Part shown: positions 9,209 to 30,561 of the stretch, one piece after another
Numbering within the stretch: position 1 is the stretch's first letter
Layout: every line of letters starts with the position of its first letter
IMG/VR virus record: IMGVR_UViG_3300033553_000304
Location: 1-32,128 of that record
Reading direction: 5' to 3' (one strand)
DNA length: 32,128 nucleotides
Origin: a virus
The notes under the pieces: model-generated
What the model was told of the DNA's origin: nothing
The model's database searches: none
The model's input: the letters and a program-made list of their open reading frames with translations, nothing else
Translations under genes and position numbers: made by a program

Positions 9209-9604
9209 ATGACCACCTGGGACACCGACTATCTACCGCCATCCTTGTGTGAGCTGGTCGACGTGATCGGCCTGCAGGCAACGCAGAGCCTTGTCAGTGA
9301 GTACGGCGGCGTCCGGCTGACGGTTCCCACCAAGATGCCAGAGGACCACCCACTGGCCGAGCTGCTCGGCATCGATGCCGCCCGCAAGCTTTCCCACCAC
9401 TACGCCCAGGAGCGCCTGGACGTTCCCAACGCCAAGGCCGCCATCATGGCCGTGCGCAACCAGAACATGCGCCAGGAACACGCGGACGGCGATTCTGCCA
9501 GGGTGCTGGCCCGCCGGTACCGGCTCACCGAACGCCGGGTTTGGGAGATCCTGTCCGAAGGTGTGCCTGATGATCGCCAGTCGGATATGTTCAGCCAGCA
9601 ATAG
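9209..9604 (+). CDS. mor: Mor-family transcription activator (middle/late activator)
   Basis: Mor and its relative C are dimeric activators that bind a dyad near -43 and recruit RNA polymerase to promoters without a -35 box. The 131-residue product has the Mor dimerisation segment (LCELVDVIGLQATQSLVSEYGGVRLTVPTKMPEDHPLAELLGIDAARKLSHHY) and a C-terminal helix-turn-helix (about 95-118: DSARVLARRYRLTERRVWEIL). No second Mor/C gene is seen in the window, so this single protein may do both jobs, activating the dyad promoters at 11720, 18845 and 29388. That link is inference. Confidence 0.92.
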   Translation: MTTWDTDYLPPSLCELVDVIGLQATQSLVSEYGGVRLTVPTKMPEDHPLAELLGIDAARKLSHHYAQERLDVPNAKAAIMAVRNQNMRQEHADGDSARVLARRYRLTERRVWEILSEGVPDDRQSDMFSQQ

Positions 9605-10092: not shown

Positions 10093-10617
10093 TTAGGGCT
10101 TTGTTTCCGGGCTTGGTTCCGGGGTAGCGTTCCCAGCAGGCTTTTTCTTTGCTTCCACGAGTTCATCAAACCTGTCGAGCTGGAGGTTCATCAGTCGACT
10201 TGGCAGGGTTAGTGAAAGGCAGAAAGCGAATGTTGCCAACCCCAGGTAGATCCGCTCAATCCACTGAACCGTGTAGTGATCCGGAAACTTTTTGGTGATC
10301 AGGCTTGATACGAAGATTAAGCCCAGTACCAAAAGATAAAGGACAAACAGCCATTTATGCCTTACTAGCCGACGATAAACGTTGCTGCGCTTTACGGCTT
10401 CGGAGCGCCATGTGGCGCCACGAAACAACATTGGCTCACCAAGCAGGGTCATGATGGTAACCAGGAACCCTGCCAGGATCGAGAACACATTGACGATCAC
10501 ACCAATAGCCTCTTGGTTATCATTGACCAGAGGCTGGCCTGCCCATCCCGCTAGTCCAGAAACAGCGGCGAAGGCTATAACAAGCCTGATCCTGCCCCAG
10601 TCAGGCTTAAATCTCAT
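10093..10617 (-). CDS. Four-helix membrane protein, second gene of leftward cargo module
   Basis: A 174-residue inner-membrane protein with four likely transmembrane helices in two pairs: about 11-28, 38-60, 88-106 and 121-139. A positively charged loop (about 62-86, ATWRSEAVKRSNVYRRLVRHK) separates the pairs, and a hydrophilic C-terminal tail follows (EAKKKPAGNATPEPSPETKP). Both termini are predicted inside. Its ATG overlaps the stop of the preceding leftward gene by 4 bases, so the two are translationally coupled. It runs against the phage operons. The arrangement of a small multi-helix membrane protein with a soluble partner resembles several phage-defence or superinfection-exclusion pairs, but no family is recognised. 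Confidence 0.8.
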   Translation of the reverse strand: MRFKPDWGRIRLVIAFAAVSGLAGWAGQPLVNDNQEAIGVIVNVFSILAGFLVTIMTLLGEPMLFRGATWRSEAVKRSNVYRRLVRHKWLFVLYLLVLGLIFVSSLITKKFPDHYTVQWIERIYLGLATFAFCLSLTLPSRLMNLQLDRFDELVEAKKKPAGNATPEPSPETKP

Positions 10618-11558
10618 TGCTCAAGGAATCCCTGTTTTTTAAGGTCATCGAAGTAAAGCTCCATTTTTGACCACATATCATTGTGCTCAACTGAGCGCTC
10701 CTGTTTTTGAACCTTTGCATAGGTCTGCAGACGAACATCGGAGGAACTTATTGTCTCATTATCCCGGGTGATAATCTTGAACTCAGATAACGGAGCATCT
10801 GGATCTTCCAGTAGAGATTCAGCCAAGCCCTCCATAGACGTTTTCGCGCTTTGCGACGCGTAGGAGTTGCCGTCCAACCGAATCTCAACATTCACCAATA
10901 AATCCTCTCTATATTTCTGATCTTCGAGAGATTCATCCTTTGCTATTACCGCTTCGAACTCTTTCCACGCGCCAGACATCGCATTCGTGAACCAGTTTTT
11001 CTGTTCCTTCTCAGGCATGCTCAGATCAAAAGCTGAGGCTCCCAACTCCATAGATCTGACGCCGTGCTTCTTGATTAACTGTAGCTTATCGAGCTTTGCG
11101 GCGGGGTTAAGATCAAAGTATGCATCCTTTTCCTCAAAACCTGCTTTGGCGAAAAATTTCTGCAGGTACAGATTCGATTTTGCCTTTGTGATCCCATGGC
11201 TGCAGAAAATCACATCATGCTTGCTGACCAATAAAAAACTGTCTCCATCTTTAAATTCACGTCCAGGCGGCGCTGCTTCAGCTTCCTCAATGTCTTCCTG
11301 ACTGTTGGCATGAGGTTGCAGCGTGGGCGCCTTTTCGCCTGGAACAAAGCGTGTCAAATGAATAAGAATTGCCCCGCTGCTCAGATTTTTGGAGCGCTGC
11401 ACGCGTACCACATCGCCGCCGCCAAACTCGACTTCACGGCTGCCAACGGTGTTGAGTTCAATGCAAGAAGCAATGATCAGTGTTCCGAGGTCGAACGGGT
11501 TTCCATCGTACACGGCTCGCAAATAGTGCAGTGTTTTCCCTATTGATTTTTGGGCCAT
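10614..11558 (-). CDS. Soluble hypothetical protein, first gene of leftward cargo module
   Basis: A 314-residue soluble protein of unknown family. The first 75 residues are mixed alpha/beta (HYLRAVYDGNPFDLGTLIIASCIEL, then VEFGGGDVVRVQRSKNLSSGAILIHLTRFVPGE). An acidic linker (about 82-101) is followed by a segment with KDGDSFLLVSKHDVIFCSHGITKAKSNLYLQKFF, then a helical middle. A C-terminal part (about 225-314) has DLLVNVEIRLDGNSYASQSAKTSMEGLAESLL and FKIITRDNETISSS. No Walker, nuclease or protease motif is clear. It is AT-richer than the structural genes, a sign of separate origin. Translation start ATG (complement of 11556-11558) has GGAG about 10 bases upstream. It probably acts with the membrane protein coupled to it. 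Confidence 0.8.
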   Translation of the reverse strand: MAQKSIGKTLHYLRAVYDGNPFDLGTLIIASCIELNTVGSREVEFGGGDVVRVQRSKNLSSGAILIHLTRFVPGEKAPTLQPHANSQEDIEEAEAAPPGREFKDGDSFLLVSKHDVIFCSHGITKAKSNLYLQKFFAKAGFEEKDAYFDLNPAAKLDKLQLIKKHGVRSMELGASAFDLSMPEKEQKNWFTNAMSGAWKEFEAVIAKDESLEDQKYREDLLVNVEIRLDGNSYASQSAKTSMEGLAESLLEDPDAPLSEFKIITRDNETISSSDVRLQTYAKVQKQERSVEHNDMWSKMELYFDDLKKQGFLEQ

Positions 11559-11719: not shown

Positions 11720-11771
11720 CCTGAACGGGTTCAGGTCGAATACCGCTTCCCCCCGCCGCTAACCTGCGGCT
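11720..11771 (+). promoter_or_regulatory. Late promoter of the lysis operon (Plys analogue) with activator dyad
   Basis: The dyad CCTGAACGGGTTCAGG (11720-11735) is followed after 24 bases by TAACCT (11760-11765), a -10-like hexamer, and 6 bases later by the ATG of the lysis gene. No -35 box is present. If transcription starts at the ATG, the dyad is centred at -44.5, close to the -43.5 reported for Mor on Mu Pm. The same layout, with identical spacing, precedes the protease gene at 18897. A small hairpin GCCGC/GCGGC (11755-11770) replaces any ribosome binding site. Confidence 0.65.
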
Positions 11772-12233
11772 ATGACAAAATCAACTTCTAATCATCTGTT
11801 TCTGCACCGGGCCTACACCGACCGTGGTGTGTTCGGCAAACTGGTAACACCCCGGCGCAGCTACCACACCCTGGAGCTGCCGTGGCTTAGCAATCGCACC
11901 TCAGTCAGCTGCATTCCCGAAGGCGTGTACCCTCTCGCATTGCGCCGTTCCGGTGTGGTCGAGCGCACCACCGGTGGCCAGTACCGCCATGGCTGGGAAG
12001 TCCAGGGCGTGCTGGGCCGCACCTACATCATGATTCACCCCGCCAACACCATCGGCGATCTGGAAGGTTGCATTGCGCCTGGCCTGTCCACCGGTGTGCT
12101 TCCGGATAACAACCGGGATCCGCAGTGGGCAATCCTCAATTCATTCGCGGCGTTCAAGATGCTGATGGAAGACCTGGAAGCACACGAGGAATGGTTCCTG
12201 GACGTCCGCACGTTTTCACCGGAGTGGCCCTGA
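11772..12233 (+). CDS. DUF5675 family protein, probable lysis/peptidoglycan enzyme
   Basis: A 153-residue protein matching the DUF5675 family often found at the lysis locus of Mu-like phages. It has FLHRAYTDRGVFGKL, the core YHTLELPWLSNRTSVSCIPEGVYPL, and VLGRTYIMIHPANTIGDLEGCIAPG. The IMIHPAN and GDLEGCIAPG blocks resemble the His and Cys motifs of YkuD-type L,D-transpeptidases, so action on peptidoglycan is plausible but unproven. No signal peptide is present, so export would need the holin next door. It has no Shine-Dalgarno sequence before the ATG, which fits a leaderless mRNA. It is the first gene of the late lysis/head operon. Confidence 0.8.
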   Translation: MTKSTSNHLFLHRAYTDRGVFGKLVTPRRSYHTLELPWLSNRTSVSCIPEGVYPLALRRSGVVERTTGGQYRHGWEVQGVLGRTYIMIHPANTIGDLEGCIAPGLSTGVLPDNNRDPQWAILNSFAAFKMLMEDLEAHEEWFLDVRTFSPEWP

Positions 12234-12234
12234 C

Positions 12235-12816
12235 ATGAACTGGAGCTGGGACGGAGTTAGAGAAACGGTTGCCAAAGCCGCACCACTGCTGGGGGCTGCT
12301 TTAGGCGGGCCTGCAGGGGGTGCTGTTGGTGGCCTGATTGCAAGCGCCCTGGGTGTCGAAGAAAAACCGGATGCCATTGCCAAGGCGCTGGAGAATGATC
12401 CGGATGCAATCATCAAGCTGCAGGAACTCCAGAGAACCCACCAGCGCGAGCTGGAGCGGATGCACCTGGAAGCGGAAACCGCCCGCCTGTCTGAAATCAA
12501 CCAGACCATGCGTGCTGAGGCCACTGCGAATGATGGTTATGTCCGCCGCTGGCGTCCGACCTTCGGCTACATGGTGGCTCTGACCTGGCTGGTTCAGTCC
12601 GTTGCGATCGCCTGGGCCATGGTGGCCGAGCCCAAAGAAGCCGCCAACCTGATCAATGCCGTTACCGCACTGACCCCGATGTGGGGCATCGCGCTGTCGA
12701 TTCTTGGTATCAACATCACATCCCGCAGCCGTGACAAGCGAGTTGCCAAAGGCCAGGACGGTCGCGGCCTGCTGGAGAAACTGACGGACGGTCTCGGGGG
12801 TAAAAGCGGTGGATGA
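12235..12816 (+). CDS. Holin-like membrane protein (3TM type)
   Basis: A 193-residue protein resembling the three-TM holin family first described in gene transfer agents. A Gly/Ala-rich hydrophobic segment lies at about 14-40 (APLLGAALGGPAGGAVGGLIASALG). It is followed by a long charged helix (about 50-95, QELQRTHQRELERMHLEAETARLSEI), then YVRRWRPTFGYMVALTWLVQSVAIAWAMV (TM2, about 106-128) and a third helix at about 140-160 (ALTPMWGIALSILGINITS). The basic C-terminus is cytoplasmic. WRPTFGY is a family signature. It would form membrane lesions that time lysis. It lies 1 base after the preceding gene and overlaps the next by 8. Confidence 0.85.
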   Translation: MNWSWDGVRETVAKAAPLLGAALGGPAGGAVGGLIASALGVEEKPDAIAKALENDPDAIIKLQELQRTHQRELERMHLEAETARLSEINQTMRAEATANDGYVRRWRPTFGYMVALTWLVQSVAIAWAMVAEPKEAANLINAVTALTPMWGIALSILGINITSRSRDKRVAKGQDGRGLLEKLTDGLGGKSGG

Positions 12817-13033
12817 AAGCCAGTTTGAACAGGCACAGGCGCTCACTGAGCGCCTGACTCTAGCAGGGATCGAGCAAAGCATGCAGGGCCACCTGGAGCC
12901 ACCTTTGGAAGTGGATGGTCAGCGGATCTGCCTGGGCTGCGAAGATCGATTGAGCCACGCGCGCCTCAAGGCCAACCCCAACGCTGTGCGCTGTGTGGAG
13001 TGCCAGAACGATTGCGACCGCAGGAGGAGGTAA
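12809..13033 (+). CDS. TraR/DksA-type C4 zinc-finger protein
   Basis: A 74-residue protein with an N-terminal helix (FEQAQALTERLTLAGIEQSM) and a C4 zinc finger: Cys41-x2-Cys44 and Cys62-x2-Cys65 in the pattern CLGCEDRLSHARLKANPNAVRCVECQ. This is the short TraR/DksA form that binds the secondary channel of RNA polymerase. Many Mu-like and P2-like phages carry one at the lysis/head boundary. GTG 12809 overlaps the holin stop; the stop overlaps the next ATG (TAATG). An effect on host rRNA or phage late transcription is inferred from the family. Confidence 0.85.
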   Translation: MDESQFEQAQALTERLTLAGIEQSMQGHLEPPLEVDGQRICLGCEDRLSHARLKANPNAVRCVECQNDCDRRRR

Positions 13034-13419
13034 TGGATTTACCGCAGTTCGATTACGAAGCCGCCAAGTTCTGGATGGGCTTTCTGCAGTTGGCCGGATT
13101 GGTTGCTCTCGGTTTCTACACCCATATGACGAGCAAATCCAAGGCAAATTCCAGCGCCATTAACACCGTTCGCGAAAACCTGACGAGCGATATTGAGGAC
13201 CTGGAGGATCGAGTAAAACGCTGTGAACAGCGTCAGGATTTGCTGGAAGGCCAGCAATCAGGCGCCCCGAACCACGGTGATCTCTCGAAGATGTATGAGC
13301 GGCTTAATGATGTAGCGCAGGATCTTTCCGGGCTCAGCGGTCAGATCTCAGCGTTATCTCGCCAGTTGTCGATGGTGAATACCTACCTGCTGAACAACAA
13401 GGGAGAGCAACCCAAATGA
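13033..13419 (+). CDS. DUF2730-like protein (Mu gp25 position), TM plus coiled coil
   Basis: A 128-residue protein with one transmembrane helix at about 14-32 (WMGFLQLAGLVALGFYTHM). A long heptad-like coiled coil follows (about 50-75, NLTSDIEDLEDRVKRCEQRQDLLEG), and a second at about 90-120. This is the pattern of DUF2730 proteins encoded just before the gp26/gp27 genes in Mu-like phages; some relatives are thought to be spanin-like or lysis accessory proteins. The start is fixed by AGGAGGAGG 3-11 bases before ATG 13033; a longer frame from 13000 has no such site. Confidence 0.78.
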   Translation: MDLPQFDYEAAKFWMGFLQLAGLVALGFYTHMTSKSKANSSAINTVRENLTSDIEDLEDRVKRCEQRQDLLEGQQSGAPNHGDLSKMYERLNDVAQDLSGLSGQISALSRQLSMVNTYLLNNKGEQPK

Positions 13420-13715
13420 GCTACCAGGACTTTCAGACCGAAGGTCGCCGTCTGGGGATTCTGCGGATTCTCGCGCGGCGTAACCTGTTCACCTCCAACG
13501 AATACAGCCTGAACGATGAGCTAGGCGGGAACTACGGCCACCACGTCAGCAAGGACCTGCTGCACAGTGATATCGCCTGGCTTGAAGAGCAGAACCTGGT
13601 GGTTTGCCAGCAGCCCCGGGCTGGATGGGTTATTACCCTTACCAGCCGGGGCAGCGACGTGGCCGATGGGCGAGCCCGCGTACCGGGTGTCGCCCAGCCA
13701 CAACCGGGGGACTAA
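13416..13715 (+). CDS. Mu gp26-like protein (VpaChn25_0724-type family)
   Basis: A 99-residue protein resembling the phage family often annotated VpaChn25_0724. The N-terminal region RRLGILRILARRNLFTSNEYSLNDELGGNYGHHVSKDLLHSDIAWLEEQNLV looks like a winged-helix fold, and WVITLTSRGSDVADGR closes it. The fold is similar to MarR/PadR DNA-binding domains, but its place among packaging genes (immediately before gp27 and the terminase) suggests a role there rather than in regulation. It overlaps the previous gene by ATGA. Confidence 0.78.
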   Translation: MSYQDFQTEGRRLGILRILARRNLFTSNEYSLNDELGGNYGHHVSKDLLHSDIAWLEEQNLVVCQQPRAGWVITLTSRGSDVADGRARVPGVAQPQPGD

Positions 13716-13718
13716 ATC

Positions 13719-14267
13719 ATGCCACCTCGCTCCAAAATCTATGATCTGCCCCAGAACCTTCGTGAGGAACTGAATGAGCGTCTGGTCAACACCGGCTTCC
13801 AGGATTACGACGGCCTGACCGACTGGCTGGAAGATCGCGGCTTTAAACTCTCACGTTCCGCTGTCCATCGTTACGGCCGTGGCCTCCAGGAGGAATTCGA
13901 GGAAGCCATGGGCGACGTGCGTAAGACCACGGAGCTGGCCCGGGCCATGACCGCCGAGAACGACGACGAGAGCGGCCACCTGATAGATGCGACCGCCCGG
14001 ATCGTCCAGGACCAGCTGCTTCGCATCACCATCGCCATGCGCAAAGCGGAGCACGAACCGGAGACTGCCGCCAAACACCTCAGCAGCGTGACCCGCGCCC
14101 TGGCGGACATCGGCCGAGTATCTTTGGGTCAGAAGAAGTGGGCCCGGGAACTTCGCCAGGAGGTCGCCAAGGAAGCAGCCGATGCAGCGGAAACCAGCAT
14201 GGCCAGCCAGGGCATGACCCGCGAATCCATCGACGCCATCAAGCGTGACATCCTGGGGATTGCCTGA
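13719..14267 (+). CDS. Small terminase-like protein (Mu gp27, DUF3486)
   Basis: A 182-residue protein of the DUF3486 family. The opening SKIYDLPQNLREELNERLVNTGFQDYDGLTDWLEDRGFKLSRSAVHRYGRGL is the family signature and contains an HTH that could bind the pac site. A helical region follows (about 65-150) with QLLRITIAMRKAE and KHLSSVTRALADIGR. Adjacent to the large terminase and overlapping it by 1 base (TGATGG), it is the likely small subunit, which recognises the left end of the prophage for headful packaging. Confidence 0.88.
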   Translation: MPPRSKIYDLPQNLREELNERLVNTGFQDYDGLTDWLEDRGFKLSRSAVHRYGRGLQEEFEEAMGDVRKTTELARAMTAENDDESGHLIDATARIVQDQLLRITIAMRKAEHEPETAAKHLSSVTRALADIGRVSLGQKKWARELRQEVAKEAADAAETSMASQGMTRESIDAIKRDILGIA

Positions 14268-15781
14268 TGGCCACCGAATTGCCGGACTCTGTTCTTCTGC
14301 CGTATCAGAAGGCGTGGATTGAAGACGATTCAGAACTCAAGATTGCCGAGAAGAGCCGGCGAACCGGCCTTACCTGGGGCGAAGCTGCAGACGCGGTACT
14401 CACGGCCAGTGCCTCCAAGGCCGCCGGCGGTACCAACCACTTCTATGTGGGCTCCAATAAAGAGATGGCCATCGAATTCATAGACGCCTGCGCCATGTGG
14501 GCGCGGGCCTTCGACAAGGCCGCTTCCACCATCCAGGAAGAAGTGCTGAAAGATGAGGACAAGGACATCCTCACCTTCAATATCCACTTCGCCAGCGGCT
14601 TCAAGATCCAGGCGCTGTCCAGTCGCCCAAGCAACCTGCGCGGCCGCCAGGGTAACGTCACTATTGACGAGGCCGCCTTTCACGCGGAGCTGGCTGAAGT
14701 ACTCAAGGCAGCGCTGGCGCTCACCATGTGGGGCGCCAAGGTGCGCCTGATCAGCACCCACAACGGCGTCGAAAACATATTCAACGAACTGATCCAGGAC
14801 AGCCGGGCCGGCAAGAAACGCTACAGCGTGCACCGGCTGACGCTGGACGATGCCTGTGATCAGGGCCTGTACCAGCGTATCTGCCAGGTGCGTGGCAAGC
14901 CCTGGAGCGCCGAAGCAGAGAAGCAGTGGAAAGAGAACCTGCTGAAAGACACTGCCACCCGCGAAGACGCCATGGAGGAATACTACTGTGTTCCGAAATC
15001 CGGCGGCGGTGCTTATATCTCCCGTGGCCTGATCGAAGCCCGCATGATTGAAGCGCCCGTGGTGCGGTACGAAGGCACTGCCGAGTTCAACGCCTGGCCG
15101 GAACACCTGCGCAAAGCGGAAGTGCACGACTGGTGCGAGAGCGTGTTGCTGCCCCTGCTGCAAACACTGAACCCAGAGAACCGCCACTGCTTCGGCGAGG
15201 ACTTTGGCCGCAGCGGCGACTTGACCAGCATCGCCCCCATGGAAATCACGCAGCAGCTCAAGCGCCGGGTGCCGTTCCTGGTGGAGTTGCGCAACGTGCC
15301 GTTCAAACAGCAGGAACAGATCCTGTTCTACATCGTCGACCGTTTGCCAAAACTGCAATACGGCGCGCTGGACGCCCGGGGCAACGGCCAGTATCTGGCG
15401 GAACAGGCGCAATACCAATACGGCTCGGAGCGTGTTGAGGCTGTCATGCTCTCTCAGGCCTGGTATCTGGAGACCATGCCCCGGTTCAAGGCGGCCTTCG
15501 AGGATGACGGCATTGAGATCCCCAGGGACAGCGACGTGCTGGACGACTTGCGCGCCCTGCAGGTGATCAGAGGCATTCCCAAACTGCCGGACGCCAAGAC
15601 GGGCGATGACAAGAAACGCCACGGTGACTCCGCGATCGCACTGGCCATGGCGTACTACGCCAGCTTCCAACAGGCCGCCCTGGAATACGGCTATGAAGCC
15701 ATTCGCTCCGGCCCCGACCACACTCACCACCGGCCGGTGCGTGCCACCGCCGGTTTCCGTAACCGAGGAGGACTGCTGTAA
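14267..15781 (+). CDS. Large terminase (Mu gp28 type)
   Basis: This 504-residue protein is the ATP-driven DNA packaging motor and nuclease. Seen in sequence: a deviant Walker A, KSRRTGLT (about 29-36), Walker B VTIDEAAF (about 131-138, with D134 E135), and coupling motif STHNG (about 163-167). The C-terminal RNase H-like nuclease has Asp312 in EDFGRSGDLT, Asp369 in LDARGNG and Asp454 in GDSAIA. Length and order match Mu gp28. It overlaps the portal gene by one base (TAATGG), as in a tightly packed late operon. Confidence 0.95.
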   Translation: MATELPDSVLLPYQKAWIEDDSELKIAEKSRRTGLTWGEAADAVLTASASKAAGGTNHFYVGSNKEMAIEFIDACAMWARAFDKAASTIQEEVLKDEDKDILTFNIHFASGFKIQALSSRPSNLRGRQGNVTIDEAAFHAELAEVLKAALALTMWGAKVRLISTHNGVENIFNELIQDSRAGKKRYSVHRLTLDDACDQGLYQRICQVRGKPWSAEAEKQWKENLLKDTATREDAMEEYYCVPKSGGGAYISRGLIEARMIEAPVVRYEGTAEFNAWPEHLRKAEVHDWCESVLLPLLQTLNPENRHCFGEDFGRSGDLTSIAPMEITQQLKRRVPFLVELRNVPFKQQEQILFYIVDRLPKLQYGALDARGNGQYLAEQAQYQYGSERVEAVMLSQAWYLETMPRFKAAFEDDGIEIPRDSDVLDDLRALQVIRGIPKLPDAKTGDDKKRHGDSAIALAMAYYASFQQAALEYGYEAIRSGPDHTHHRPVRATAGFRNRGGLL

Positions 15782-17349
15782 TGGCCGAATCACTTATTGT
15801 GGACGCACACGGCCGTCCGATCCGGAAGGCCGAACTGAAGAAAGAGCTGGCCGCGCCATCACTCACCGGCGTTCGCCAGGTGTGGCACAACGGCATCGCC
15901 AGTCACCTGACCCCGGACCGCTTGGGAATGATCCTGCGGGCGGCCGAGAACAACGATGGCCACGACTACCTTACCCTGGCCGAGGAAATGGAAGAGCGCG
16001 AGCCGCACTACGCCTCTGTTCTGGGTACCCGAAAGCGCGCCGTCAGCGGCCTGGACGTGGTGGTGGAATCCGCCACCGATGAACCGGCGGACGTGCGCCT
16101 GGCCGATGCGGTGCGAGACCTGGTGCGGGATGCGGTATTCGGCGACCTCGTCGAGGATCTGCTCGACGCCCTGGGCAAGGGCTACTCTGTCTCCGAGATC
16201 ATGTGGAATACCCGGGGCGGCCAGTGGTGGCCACGGGAATACGTCTGGCGGGATCCGCGCTTCTTCCGGTTCGACCAGGCCACCGGCCGTGAACTGCGGC
16301 TGATCGATCAGAACAACGTCGCCAACGGCGTGGCCCTGGCCCCGTACAAGTTCATCGTTCACCGCCCCCGGTTGAAGGCTGGCATCCCGCTGCGCGGTGG
16401 CCTGGCTCGACTGGTCGCCGTGTCGTACATGGCCAAGAGCTACACACTGACCGACTGGCTGGCGTTCGCCGAGGTTTTCGGCATGCCGCTGCGCCTGGGC
16501 CGCTATAACGACGCCGCCAAGCCGGAAGAGGTGGACATCCTGCGTGCGGCCGTGGCCAACCTGGGCTCTGATGCGGCCGCCATCCTGCCCGAAGGCATGA
16601 AGATCGAGTTCCAGGAAATTGCCAACACCCAGGGCGGTGCCGATCTGTTCAAGGGCCTGGCCGAGTGGATCGACAAACAGACCAGCAAGGCGGTGCTGGG
16701 CCAGACCATGACCACGGACGACGGTTCCAGCCAGGCACAGGCCACCGTTCACAACGACGTGCGCGAAGACATTCAGCGGGCGGACGCGCGCCACCTCGGC
16801 GTGAGTCTGAATCGTGACCTGGTCAAGCCGTTCATCGACCTGAACTACGGTGTGCAGCGCCGGTACCCGACGATCAGAATCAACGTCCCTGAGCCGGAAG
16901 ATCTCAAGCAGCTGGTCGATGCACTGGAGCGGCTGGTACCGCTGGGGCTGAAAGTTGAAACCTCCGTGGTTTCCGACAAGCTTGGCCTGCCAGATCCGGC
17001 CAAAGGTGCGGACATTCTCATGCCTGAACAGCAGGTGTTAACCAGCGTTGAATCCGCCAGTAACCGATCTTTAAAGACCGCTCAAAACCGCGAATCCGTG
17101 GTCAACGAAAGCGAGCCCGACTTTGCAGAAATCGCTGAGGCAGAGGATGACTGGCAGGTACAGCTGGCCCCGCTGGTGGATCCGATCGAACGCCTGGCGC
17201 AACGCGTAGCCGAGGAAGGCGGCAACGAGGACGACTTCCTCGCTCGTCTGGGCGAAGTACTCGCCGAGATGGACGAGACCGAACTGGTCCGTCGCCTGGC
17301 GTCCAGCACCTTCAAGGCCCGGGGCCTGGGCGATGCGAGGGATGACTGA
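15781..17349 (+). CDS. Portal protein (Mu gp29, DUF935)
   Basis: A 522-residue protein forming the dodecameric ring at the head vertex through which DNA enters. DUF935 features include LTPDRLGMILRAAENNDGHDYLTLAEEMEEREPHYASVLGTRKRAVSGL, then GKGYSVSEIMWNTRGGQWWP, FRFDQATGRELRLID, SYTLTDWLAFAEVFGMPLRLGRY and KAVLGQTMTTDDGSSQAQATVHNDVREDI. The C-terminal 90 residues are acidic and variable. It overlaps the MuF-like gene by one base. Confidence 0.95.
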   Translation: MAESLIVDAHGRPIRKAELKKELAAPSLTGVRQVWHNGIASHLTPDRLGMILRAAENNDGHDYLTLAEEMEEREPHYASVLGTRKRAVSGLDVVVESATDEPADVRLADAVRDLVRDAVFGDLVEDLLDALGKGYSVSEIMWNTRGGQWWPREYVWRDPRFFRFDQATGRELRLIDQNNVANGVALAPYKFIVHRPRLKAGIPLRGGLARLVAVSYMAKSYTLTDWLAFAEVFGMPLRLGRYNDAAKPEEVDILRAAVANLGSDAAAILPEGMKIEFQEIANTQGGADLFKGLAEWIDKQTSKAVLGQTMTTDDGSSQAQATVHNDVREDIQRADARHLGVSLNRDLVKPFIDLNYGVQRRYPTIRINVPEPEDLKQLVDALERLVPLGLKVETSVVSDKLGLPDPAKGADILMPEQQVLTSVESASNRSLKTAQNRESVVNESEPDFAEIAEAEDDWQVQLAPLVDPIERLAQRVAEEGGNEDDFLARLGEVLAEMDETELVRRLASSTFKARGLGDARDD

Positions 17350-18623
17350 TGGCCAACTTTAAGGCTGGCCCGGTACCGCGTAACGCCCTGGCGTATTTCC
17401 GCGACAAGGATCTGCGCGTTGGTTTTGATTACCAGGATGTGTGGGGCCGGGAACACGCCCACGCCTTCACCGTGGCCAAGGCCATGAAGCTGGATATTCT
17501 GGATGATATCCGAGCCGGACTGGACGAGGCGCTGGCCGAGGGTAAGACCTTCCGGGATTTCTCCCGGGAGCTGAAACCGAAGCTCCAGGAGAAAGGCTGG
17601 TGGGGCATCAAAGAGGAACTGGACCCGAGCACCGGCGAACGCCGCCCGGTGCAGTTGGGTTCGCCCCGCCGGCTGAAAACCATCTATCAGTCAAACCTGC
17701 GCAGCGCCCGATCGGCTGGCCAGTGGCAGAGAATTCAGCGCACCAAGGAAACCCAGCCCTTCCTGCTGTATGAGCTGGGCCCCAGCGAGAACCACAGGCC
17801 GGAGCACGTCTCTTGGGCGGGTACGTTGCTGCCCGTGGATCACCCCTGGTGGCAGAGCCACATGACGCCCAACGGCTACGGCTGCAAGTGCCGGGTACGC
17901 CAGGTGTCTGAGGTGGAAGCCGAGCGGATGGAGCGGGAAGGCATCCAGGATCCACAGGCGGAATTGGAAACCGACCCGGAAACAGGCCTGCCCACCGGCC
18001 GTCGCCAACGCCGCACCATGCCAGTCCGCCGCGAGGCGCCGCCCACGCGAACACTTAGCTTCACCAATAGGCGCACTGGTGAGATCACGCAGGTAGACCA
18101 GGGCCTGCATCCCGCGTGGGCCAGCAACCCGGGGCAGGATCGTGTGCGCATACTGCGGGACCGGATGACCGGCAAGCTGGACACTGTCGACCAGCGACTG
18201 GCCCAGGCGACCACACAGGACGTAATGGACAGCCCGATCCTGACCGACTGGCTACGCCGCCCGGATGGCGAGCTGCCAGCAGGTGTCATTGAACGCCGTG
18301 CTCAGACAGCCCTTGGCGCTGACACTCAGGTGGTGCGGTTGGCGCCTGGTCGCCTGCCGGATCCGGACGGCCTGGCGGTGGAGGATTACCGGCAGCTGCC
18401 AGGCGTGATCTCCCAAGGTATACTGATCGCCCGGGACGATAACAGCCTTTCAGTGTTCCGAAGCCGTGAAGGCGACACCGGCAATCCCTGGTGGCTGGCC
18501 ACGGTCCAGCGCAGCGGTGACTACCAGCGTCTGTACCTCACCGACTATCGTGTGGCCACCGACGAAGACCTGGAACAGGCCCGCAGTCGCGGCCAGGTGA
18601 TCCGAGCCTCAGAACAGCTCTGA
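17349..18623 (+). CDS. MuF-like head morphogenesis protein with C-terminal possible nuclease domain
   Basis: A 424-residue protein of the Mu gp30/F family, a minor head protein injected or assembled near the portal. The MuF signature is at about 149-184: HRPEHVSWAGTLLPVDHPWW, then HMTPNGYGCKCRV. A proline/arginine-rich linker follows (about 205-245). The C-terminal part, about 275-413, is a separate alpha/beta unit (LPGVISQGILIARDDNSLSVF, then WWLATVQRSGDYQRLYLTDY). It resembles the phage Barnase-EndoU-ColicinE5-RelE-like (PBECR) domains found at the end of many MuF proteins; I cannot pick out catalytic residues. The last gene of the first late operon before a terminator-like region. Confidence 0.88.
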   Translation: MANFKAGPVPRNALAYFRDKDLRVGFDYQDVWGREHAHAFTVAKAMKLDILDDIRAGLDEALAEGKTFRDFSRELKPKLQEKGWWGIKEELDPSTGERRPVQLGSPRRLKTIYQSNLRSARSAGQWQRIQRTKETQPFLLYELGPSENHRPEHVSWAGTLLPVDHPWWQSHMTPNGYGCKCRVRQVSEVEAERMEREGIQDPQAELETDPETGLPTGRRQRRTMPVRREAPPTRTLSFTNRRTGEITQVDQGLHPAWASNPGQDRVRILRDRMTGKLDTVDQRLAQATTQDVMDSPILTDWLRRPDGELPAGVIERRAQTALGADTQVVRLAPGRLPDPDGLAVEDYRQLPGVISQGILIARDDNSLSVFRSREGDTGNPWWLATVQRSGDYQRLYLTDYRVATDEDLEQARSRGQVIRASEQL

Positions 18624-18844
18624 TCTGGTCAACTTTTGCTCACACTGTAGAACGCTCTCAGAAGCGCCAGAAGGCCGCTAACTGATACAGAGCTACCATG
18701 GCCGGGGTCAAACCCCGTTCGTCGTTTTTAAATGGGCGTTAAATGGGGTCTTGGCGATTGCCAACCACTGGCCGAGTCCGATAACCTGTTTCTACCGGTA
18801 CCTCCCTGGTTCCGTTTTCGCTCTCCCTCCTGATTGAATTTCCC
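18624..18844 (+). other. Intergenic region between MuF-like and protease genes
   Basis: No gene is seen in this 221-base stretch. It holds a terminator-like hairpin (listed separately) and an imperfect 11-bp tandem repeat, TTAAATGGG at 18728-18736 and 18739-18747. It leads into the dyad and late promoter of the protease gene. Base composition is lower in GC than the genes either side. Confidence 0.6.
18703..18729 (+). terminator. Rho-independent terminator-like hairpin after MuF gene
   Basis: CGGGGT (18703-18708), loop CAA and ACCCCG (18712-18717) make a 6-bp stem, followed after 7 bases by TTTTT (18725-18729). The gap between stem and T run is longer than normal, so efficiency may be modest. 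It separates the lysis/packaging operon from the head operon that starts at 18897. Confidence 0.5.
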
Positions 18845-18896
18845 CCTGAAGCCCTTCAGGCCCTTGTGCTGATTGGCCTGCCGCTAGTCTGGCGGC
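18845..18896 (+). promoter_or_regulatory. Late promoter of head operon (PI analogue) with activator dyad
   Basis: The dyad CCTGAAGCCCTTCAGG (18845-18860), then 24 bases, then TAGTCT (18885-18890), then 6 bases to the ATG at 18897. Dyad-to-hexamer and dyad-to-ATG distances are identical to those at 11720-11772. The bases just before the ATG also match in shape (GCCGCTAgtctGGCGGC against GCCGCTAacctGCGGCT). No -35 box and no Shine-Dalgarno sequence. Mu has its C-dependent PI promoter at this same place. Confidence 0.65.
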
Positions 18897-19928
18897 ATGG
18901 AAAAAACAAACGCACTCCGCTCCGGCCTTGCCAAGGCCCTGAACACCGAACCGACACTGGGCCAAGGCCTGGCGCTGAACGTTGAGCTGCCAGTTGAACT
19001 GCCAGCTGGAGAAGCCCCGGATTGGGTAGAGCTGCTGCCAGCCGGTGACATCGTTATGGGCCGGGATGGCCGCACCTGGCGCAACAGCAATCCCCAGGGT
19101 GTGGTTGAGCAGTACATTGCCCGCAACGTCGACCTGGTCATTGACTGGGAGCACGCCAGCGAGCACCGCGCCCCGAATGGCCAGGACGCTCCGGCTGCAG
19201 GCTGGGTCAAGGAACTGGCGGTTCGCGACGGTGCCGTATGGGGCCGTGTGGAATGGACTGAGAAGGCTGCCGGCCAGCTCCAGCGCAAAGAATACCGCTA
19301 TCTCTCCCCCGTTTTTCTCTACACCAGCGATGGAAACCAGGTCTTTCGGCTTGCCAGCGCGGGCCTGACCAATCAACCCAACCTAGAGCTTAAGGCTCTT
19401 AACCAGCAAACCCACCAGGAGGAATTCCCCGTGTGGAAACAACTGCTCAAGCGGCTGGGTCTACCCGAAGACGCGACTGAGGAACAGGCAATTACTGCCC
19501 TCAATCAAGTTCAGGACGACCTGAAGACCGCAAAAAATCGGGAGTCGAACCCGAGTCTCGAAAAATACGTGCCCCGTGCTGACTTCGACCAGGCCCAGAG
19601 TCGCGCCGCCAATGCGGAGCAGAAGCTGGAAACCCTGAAGAAGGAGCGCGAGGACGAGGCCATCGATACTGCCATCAACCAGGCACTGGAAGACGGCAAG
19701 ATCGCACCGGCCACCGTGGACTACCACAAGGCACAGTGCCGCACCGAAGGCGGGCTGGAGCGCTTCACGAAGTTTGTGGAAGGCGCACCGGCAATCACCG
19801 GTGACTCAGGACTGGAAGGTCGCAAGCCGCCCGGATCCGAGAAGGCGCTCAACACCGAGACCCTCAAGATTGCCGGCATGTTTGGCAACTCTGAAGAGGA
19901 CCTCAAGAAATTCGGAGGGGTCAACTGA
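18897..19928 (+). CDS. I: Prohead protease with C-terminal scaffold (Mu gpI type)
   Basis: A 343-residue protein of the Mu I family: N-terminal serine-type maturation protease and C-terminal scaffold. The protease part covers about 1-170 (LPAGDIVMGRDGRTW, VEQYIARNVDLVIDWEHASEH, AAGWVKELAVRDGAVWGRVEWT, KEYRYLSPVFLY, ASAGLTNQPNLELKAL); the His in WEHAS and Ser in RLASAGLTN are candidate catalytic residues. From about 180 the protein is a charged coiled-coil scaffold with FDQAQSRAANAEQKLETLKKERED. A second, independent start for the scaffold lies at 19431. The ATG has no ribosome binding site, as expected from a leaderless late transcript. Overlaps the next gene by one base. Confidence 0.92.
   Translation: MEKTNALRSGLAKALNTEPTLGQGLALNVELPVELPAGEAPDWVELLPAGDIVMGRDGRTWRNSNPQGVVEQYIARNVDLVIDWEHASEHRAPNGQDAPAAGWVKELAVRDGAVWGRVEWTEKAAGQLQRKEYRYLSPVFLYTSDGNQVFRLASAGLTNQPNLELKALNQQTHQEEFPVWKQLLKRLGLPEDATEEQAITALNQVQDDLKTAKNRESNPSLEKYVPRADFDQAQSRAANAEQKLETLKKEREDEAIDTAINQALEDGKIAPATVDYHKAQCRTEGGLERFTKFVEGAPAITGDSGLEGRKPPGSEKALNTETLKIAGMFGNSEEDLKKFGGVN
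19431..19928 (+). CDS. Internal in-frame start giving scaffold protein (Mu gpZ analogue)
   Basis: GTG 19431 (Val179 of the protease) is preceded by a perfect AGGAGG (19417-19422) at 8 bases, a better site than the full gene has. Translation from here gives a 165-residue protein MWKQLLKRLGLPEDATEEQA onward, made of the coiled-coil scaffold region only. Mu and lambda make their scaffold this way, from a nested start inside the protease gene. The strength of the site and its exact position at the domain border make this convincing, though expression is inferred. Confidence 0.85.
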   Translation: MWKQLLKRLGLPEDATEEQAITALNQVQDDLKTAKNRESNPSLEKYVPRADFDQAQSRAANAEQKLETLKKEREDEAIDTAINQALEDGKIAPATVDYHKAQCRTEGGLERFTKFVEGAPAITGDSGLEGRKPPGSEKALNTETLKIAGMFGNSEEDLKKFGGVN

Positions 19929-29387: not shown

Positions 29388-29433
29388 GCTGAAGGGCTTC
29401 AGGCCCAAGGCTACTGCGTGATCAGGCCACCAT
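29388..29433 (+). promoter_or_regulatory. Candidate late promoter upstream of P gene (PP analogue)
   Basis: The dyad GCTGAAGGGCTTCAGG (29388-29403) has the CTGAA-N4-TTCAG form of the other two. At the same spacing as in those, 24 bases on, lies CACCAT (29428-29433), a weaker -10 that keeps the A2 and T6 positions. The ATG of P is 102 bases away, so this mRNA would have a leader. Mu has its PP promoter at this place. Weaker than the first two sites but the position is telling. Confidence 0.5.
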
Positions 29434-29505: not shown

Positions 29506-30561
29506 ATGCAAGCGGGCCTTATGTCTTCACGGGTTGAACTTCTCATTGACGGTAATCGACACGGCGGCTGGACCTCCGTGAATATTCGCCGTGGCCTCAA
29601 CCAGGTGGCGGACCGTTTCGAGCTTTCCCTGACTGAAAAGTGGAGCGAATCCACCCAGCCCGCACCGGTCCGCAGTGGCGCCGAATGCCAGGTGTTTATC
29701 GATGACGAGCTGGTGATCACCGGTTATGTCGACGAAGTACTTCCCGCCTACGATGCCAGACAGCACAGCCTGGTGGTGAGCGGCCGCTCCAAGACCGCCG
29801 ACCTGGTGGACTGTTCCTCCCGCCGCAAGACGTGGAGTAAACCCCGCAAGCTGGAAGCCATTGCCCGCGAACTGGCCGAGCCATTCGGCATTGAGGTGGT
29901 GGTCGAGGCTGATACCGGTGCGCCGATCAAGGCCCCGGCCGTGGAGTCTGGTCAGCCATATTATGAAGCCCTGGAACAAATGGGCCGGTACCGGGCGGTG
30001 ATCTTTGTCTGCGATCCCCAGGGCCGGCTGGTGATCACTAAGCCACCCCGTGGCCGTATCGACACGGCGCTGGCGCTGGGTGAAAACATCCGCCAGGGCT
30101 CCGGCCGTTTCTCGATCCGGGATCGCTTCTCCCAGATCATCGTCCAGGGTCAGCAGCCCGGTGACGATCTGCTTTCAGGTGAACAAGCCGCCAGTCCGGA
30201 AGGCACGGCCACCGACCCCGTCATCCGCTTCCGCACGCAGGTGATTGTTGCTGACACGGCGGTCGATAAGGCCGGCTGCCGGCAGCGTGCTGAGAATGAA
30301 ACCCGCCGCCGTCGCGGCCGTGGCCGGGGGCTGACCTACACCGTGGCCGGGTGGCGCCATGACAGTGGTTTATGGACGCCTGGCTTTGAGGTTTCCGTGC
30401 GTGACCGCTGGCTGGGCATCCAGGACGACATGCTCATCGAGGGCGTGCAGCTGGTTCTGGATGGCCAGGGCGAACGCGCCGAGATCCAAGTGGTACCGCC
30501 ATCAGCATGGGACCTGTCCGCAGAGCCTGAGCCGGAAGAGGAGGAGTCCGTATGGGGATGA
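29506..30561 (+). CDS. P: Baseplate hub protein (Mu gpP, gp44)
   Basis: A 351-residue hub protein related to T4 gp27/P2 gpD, at the centre of the baseplate. It has VELLIDGNRHGGWTSVNIRRGLNQVADRFELSLTEKW, VFIDDELVITGYVDEVLPAYDARQHSLVVSGRSKTADLVDCS, and a C-terminal part with WRHDSGLWTPGFEVSVRDRWLGIQDDMLIEGVQLVLD. Two starts are possible: 29506, and ATG 29521, which fits homologue lengths better; neither has a good ribosome binding site and both lie close to the hairpin. The overlap with the spike gene is 10 bases. Confidence 0.93.
   Translation: MQAGLMSSRVELLIDGNRHGGWTSVNIRRGLNQVADRFELSLTEKWSESTQPAPVRSGAECQVFIDDELVITGYVDEVLPAYDARQHSLVVSGRSKTADLVDCSSRRKTWSKPRKLEAIARELAEPFGIEVVVEADTGAPIKAPAVESGQPYYEALEQMGRYRAVIFVCDPQGRLVITKPPRGRIDTALALGENIRQGSGRFSIRDRFSQIIVQGQQPGDDLLSGEQAASPEGTATDPVIRFRTQVIVADTAVDKAGCRQRAENETRRRRGRGRGLTYTVAGWRHDSGLWTPGFEVSVRDRWLGIQDDMLIEGVQLVLDGQGERAEIQVVPPSAWDLSAEPEPEEEESVWG

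Follow-up and report, generated by a model that had tools for sequence, protein, structure and literature searches.

Late operons and promoter geometry in the window

The window, by which we mean the whole stretch of 32,128 bases analysed here, is the record of a Mu-like phage. The genes and promoter elements given below lie on its plus strand, with the exception of two ORFs noted as such. A gene for a late transcription activator of the Mor/C family is found at 9209–9604 (Pfam PF08765, E 8.5e-11; PHROG 836, late transcriptional activator), and a search of the whole record for a second Mor/C-family gene returned none beyond it, whereas Mu carries both Mor and C. As the best PHROG match of the protein is a late transcriptional activator, its role is probably that of Mu C. 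Downstream, the lysis operon opens with a DUF5675 gene (11772–12233; PF18925, E 1.2e-22) that is followed by a holin-like gene at 12235, while the capsid operon opens with gene I, the capsid protease (18897–19928; PF10123, E 2.6e-63), for which 18897 is the sole start codon ahead of the conserved protease core. The genes served in Mu by the late promoters Plys, PI and PP (activated by C) and by Pm (activated by Mor) are present here in the same order. Two minus-strand ORFs of 174 and 314 aa occupy 10093–11558, with the activator region on one side and the lysis operon on the other; both are missing from phage B23 and are probably accessory insertions.

Upstream of the lysis operon and of gene I lie two perfect activator-type dyads of the form CCTGAA-N4-TTCAGG, CCTGAACGGGTTCAGG at 11720–11735 (Plys) and CCTGAAGCCCTTCAGG at 18845–18860 (PI). 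They are the only two such dyads in the window, where approximately 0.004 would be expected by chance under equal base frequencies. At both sites 36 nt separate the end of the dyad from the ATG, so that the dyad spans –52 to –37 relative to the A of the ATG, and a –10-like hexamer follows the dyad after 24 bp: TAACCT at 11760–11765 for Plys and TAGTCT at 18885–18890 for PI, each at –12 to –7. Each hexamer holds an in-frame TAA or TAG at –12, which leaves no start further upstream in either ORF. The coordinates, the shared 36-base distance and the placement of the hexamers, all proposed in an earlier note on this DNA, proved correct when the sequence was rechecked. The note also placed the dyad centre at –44.5, as expected for Mor; the position stood, and the expectation is approximate, as the Mor dyad at Mu Pm is centred at –43.5 (PMC4287176; PMC4390567). 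With the centre one base off and an activator nearest to the late activators, we rejected an exact match to Mor at Pm. The 24-bp spacing from dyad to hexamer is slightly unlike that of Pm.

Neither gene has a Shine–Dalgarno (SD) sequence, as the note had said: the SD duplex energies of the two are +1.9 and –1.5 kcal/mol, against –5 to –12 kcal/mol for most other genes of the window. When 33 start codons in the window were tested, just these two combined an A at –11 and a T at –7 (hereafter A-11/T-7) with the lack of an SD. Consensus sigma-70 –35/–10 promoters and terminators were also sought near both sites, and none were found above chance. A third late promoter, probable PP, is marked by an imperfect dyad, GCTGAAGGGCTTCAGG (29388–29403), with CACCAT 24 bp downstream. 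Gene P at 29506, identified by its gpP domains, has an SD and a leader of ~66 nt. Since PP shares the dyad and the 24-bp spacing but has an SD leader, the leaderless layout proposed below is a trait of Plys and PI rather than of the activator class as such.

Gene I contains a second, internal start. Strong scaffold initiation at 19431 within the protease gene, as put forward earlier, is supported by an AGGAGG sequence at 19417–19422 (duplex –10.3 kcal/mol) ahead of an in-frame GTG that opens scaffold Z (19431–19928). The same arrangement is annotated in Mu, an internal start with a strong SD is found at a similar place in most relatives, and an internal scaffold start has been described for PaMx73 in a paper that makes no mention of leaderlessness (PMC4378225). 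The pairing of a predicted leaderless full-length protease with a strong internal scaffold start is likewise conserved. Scaffold Z would thus be made from the same mRNA as the protease by way of its own strong SD, and full-length protease could stay low while scaffold is high.

A further element, of the type TTTTTAAA-C/T-GGG..TTAAA, lies upstream of gene I at 18724–18750. The strict TTTTTAAA-type pattern occurs in 17 of 149 dereplicated loci, compared with ~0.005 expected per region, and in Mu (locus L084, 8895–8945) a sequence of this type adjoins the annotated gyrase cut site. The element may be a conserved strong gyrase site.

Conservation of the gene I start among relatives

We collected ~230 related protease loci from viral contigs, bacterial genomes and named phages; the starting loci were picked by similarity to the protease of this phage, so the counts given here represent no fraction of all Mu-like phages. 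In the close clade (82–89% protease identity) the gene I dyad, hexamer and 36-nt distance are invariant, and the same is true of the lysis gene wherever that region is covered, with the Plys dyad at the same distance in six loci (L003, L004, L006, L007, L010 and L083). The 36-nt distance recurs with different spacers at ~45–55% protease identity (L025, L027, L028, L037, L047 and L048).

For the main statistics we kept just those loci, 94 in all, in which a single start codon is possible ahead of the protease core, a filter that avoids picking starts that fit the idea. Of these, 71 combine A-11/T-7 with the lack of an SD, an SD is present in 9, and 14 show neither feature. The SD is weak in 83 of the 94, and in 69 of those 83 the hexamer's A2 and T6 are found at register –12, compared with an average of 3.0 for the remaining registers; in the set dereplicated at 60% protein identity, the figures become 18 of 28 versus 1.1. 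Other single-start genes from the same loci served as controls (n = 131), with A-11/T-7 in 5 and a strong SD in 85. A pyrimidine precedes the start codon in every one of the 83 weak-SD protease starts versus 61 of the 131 control genes, and the 109 signature-bearing candidate protease starts comprise 106 ATG, 1 GTG and 2 TTG. Across loci, we take A-11/T-7, the pyrimidine at –1 and the preference for ATG together as signs of a –10 box with a pyrimidine–purine start point on the A of the AUG. The –10 boxes are weak, given a T at –12 in only 22 of 83 starts. A TAA or TAG within the hexamer favors a locus passing the single-start filter, yet T-12 is no more frequent than those 22 of 83.

More distant examples come from the Pseudomonas Mu-like phages D3112 and DMS3 (protease ~29% identical), which, as here, each have two promoters of this form, one ahead of the lysis region and one at gene I, with six to seven bases between the –10 box and the start codon. 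At DMS3 gene I both the hexamer-to-ATG and the dyad-to-ATG distances are one base longer than at the other DMS3 site, and the dyad-to-hexamer distance is therefore kept. The ATG implied for DMS3 gene I (L246) is at 19037 and the annotated start is 42 codons downstream, which would mean that it was annotated too late. DMS3 also has an unannotated 115-aa ORF (phrog_3648) at 10261, its other implied start, and in the deposited sequence of D3112 (L247, 10794) the matching gene I ATG and the annotated start are in different frames.

Phages or prophages with the signature were found in Marinobacter, many Pseudomonas, Thiomicrorhabdus, Oceanospirillaceae, Paludibacterium, an Azoarcus MAG, alphaproteobacterial MAGs and Treponema, a host list that, like the accompanying quick tree, uses a relaxed leaderless class with some weak calls. 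In that quick tree, strong SDs take the place of the signature in one clade (22 of 26 rows), whose members are mostly deltaproteobacterial and metagenomic. The gene I start of Mu and of Vibrio and Shewanella phages differs from the signature, and in phage B3 the signature is absent at the annotated protease start. In the Vibrio and Shewanella Mu-like phages (L085, 2641; L086, 2604; L090, 2858) a terminator-like hairpin, AAAAAGCACAAT...GTTGTGCTTTT, directly precedes the ATG of the lysis gene. In a further group, from Myxococcota MAGs (L163, L167 and similar), the ATG is preceded by CACAAT at a distance of eight bases and by a GGCTGAA-type dyad at ~38 nt, which may be a more widely spaced version of this design.

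An inverted repeat around the –10 box

The earlier note had aligned the sequences around the two start codons as GCCGCTA..CT.GCGG. This likeness is real, and it corresponds to an inverted repeat that encloses the –10 box: GCCGC-TAACCT-GCGGC at Plys (11755–11770; predicted hairpin –10.6 kcal/mol) and TGCCGC-TAGTCTG-GCGGCA at PI (18879–18897, including the A of the ATG; –12.1 kcal/mol). Of all 33 starts tested in the window, these two have the most stable start-proximal hairpins. When the upstream regions of the relatives are aligned, the strongest inverted repeat is centered on the –10 box and not on the activator dyad; the hexamer forms its loop, and its right arm extends to the ATG. Judged by this alignment, the repeat is a separate conserved element, new here and beyond the likeness noted before.

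The sequence of the arms varies while their pairing is kept, as in GCCGCC/GGCGGC, GACCGCC/GGCGGTC, GTGGCCAG/CTGGCCAC, GGGGCGA/TCGCCCC, GCCCGC/GCGGGC and CCCCGC/GCGGGG. In one example, matched arms gave –9.1 kcal/mol versus –6.3 kcal/mol for arms swapped between loci (0 of 300 permutations), and matched arms folded better than swapped arms at every dereplication level, even after removal of the loci that carry the common GGCGGC arm. For read-through RNA, the predicted probability of being unpaired is 0.27 for the AUG and 0.12 for the six preceding bases, compared with 0.49 and 0.50 in control genes. In a transcript starting at the AUG, the predicted value for the AUG is 0.77.

These predictions suggest a possible lock on translation: in read-through RNA the inverted repeat would fold and hide the AUG, whereas the promoter's own transcript would lack the left arm and the loop and leave the AUG free. 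A precedent is known from T4 genes e, soc and 49: early read-through RNA masks their start, and a late promoter located within the region of the hairpin yields transcripts that expose it (PMC3014915). By prediction the present case is of the gene e type, with a hairpin over the start in the longer RNA that is absent from the RNA of the late promoter. As in T4, the promoter is within the hairpin-coding region and its own transcripts would be without the 5′ arm. The T4 late mRNAs retain a leader with an SD, unlike the present case, in which the loop is formed by the –10 box itself and the right arm ends at a predicted leaderless start codon. Taken alone, we give the lock a little less than an even chance.

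A competing explanation is that the inverted repeat acts as DNA, either as a repressor operator or as a GC clamp that makes the promoter activator-dependent. The right arm doubles as the promoter discriminator, and Mu C is known to act on the closed-to-open complex transition, the melting step, at its promoters Plys, PI and PP (PMC4461284), both of which would suit such a function. G-U wobble pairs in the stem, sought as an RNA-specific mark, were not enriched, so the stem data do not tell an RNA function from a DNA function. However, arms that vary in sequence with their complementarity kept are unlike the binding site of one protein, and a clamp requires GC content, not complementarity. We consider a DNA element possible, though it ranks behind the lock. 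In the Treponema loci the –10 box is present and the hairpin absent, which indicates that the two elements are separable.

Proposed leaderless late mRNAs in Mu-like phages

In the proposed mechanism, Plys and PI are activator-dependent late promoters at which the Mor/C-family protein would bind the dyad and host sigma-70 RNA polymerase would use the –10 box 24 bp downstream. This spacing would put the start of transcription on the A of the ATG, and the lysis and protease/scaffold/capsid mRNAs would then be leaderless and read from a 5′-terminal AUG. The parts match those of the Mu C and Mor promoters in having a dyad, no –35 box and a weak –10 box; at Mu, Mor binds a 16-bp dyad in place of the –35 box (PMC4390567). 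Mu and this phage thus have in common an activator of the PF08765 family encoded in the same phage, a 16-bp dyad that stands for the –35 box, a –10-like hexamer and an internal scaffold start. They differ in that the Mu lys and I genes have short leaders with annotated ribosome binding sites, while here the start is predicted on the ATG itself.

Both starts also have the features of leaderless mRNAs, namely the lack of an SD, an AUG start and a –10 box six to seven bases ahead of it. The mapped cI mRNA of phage lambda is leaderless and is similar in all three respects. It belongs to a regulator gene, unlike the genes considered here, which head late lysis and capsid operons and are predicted to be leaderless and widely conserved as such. 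Lambda cI has also been used as a leaderless reporter (PMC8138138). A search of the open-access literature for published start-site data on DMS3, D3112 or other Mu-like phages found none.

A short leader, with transcription starting slightly upstream of the ATG and translation proceeding independently of an SD through an unstructured, A-rich start region, would account for the same genes. SD-independent translation of leadered mRNAs is a known phenomenon, and short leaders do occur at the Plys and PI of Mu. However, the only positionally conserved –10-like element is at –12 to –7, which leaves no room for a leader, the AUG would fall inside the hairpin, and the pyrimidine at –1 with the ATG-only start is specific to a start point at the A. 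We therefore regard a short leader as improbable. That the likeness of Plys and PI reflects coincidence, or shared ancestry without constraint, is very improbable: both could stem from one duplication, but the downstream genes are unrelated, the positions hold while the spacers differ across phages below 60% protease identity, and control genes are without the pattern.

The reading we favor, that the lysis and protease operon mRNAs of this phage are leaderless with a start on the A of the ATG, is given a probability of roughly 0.8. The weakness of the –10 boxes and the small departure from the Pm spacing count against it. The earlier note had proposed leaderless transcripts for these two genes, and the comparison of relatives (A-11/T-7 without an SD in 71 of 94) supports it. 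For the protease, the comparison strongly supports leaderless transcripts across many Mu-like phages; for the lysis gene, a leaderless transcript is supported in the close clade and in D3112 and DMS3, fewer phages than for the protease. The fullest form of the proposal, in which many Mu-like phages other than Mu have leaderless protease (and in some cases lysis) mRNAs, the –10 box is the loop of a start-blocking hairpin and translation depends on the promoter used, is more tentative, and we would put it at just under evens.

Well-studied Proteobacteria have few leaderless mRNAs, and what purpose these serve is an open question. Here leaderlessness is apparently a conserved rule for a major late operon in a large group of phages, laboratory phages of Pseudomonas among them, and gene I start sites in phages such as DMS3 would need correcting. 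The layout of gene I suggests a way in which unequal amounts of a protease and its in-frame scaffold may be produced. Should the hairpin act in the proposed way, a single short segment of DNA would serve as both a promoter core and a promoter-specific lock on translation.
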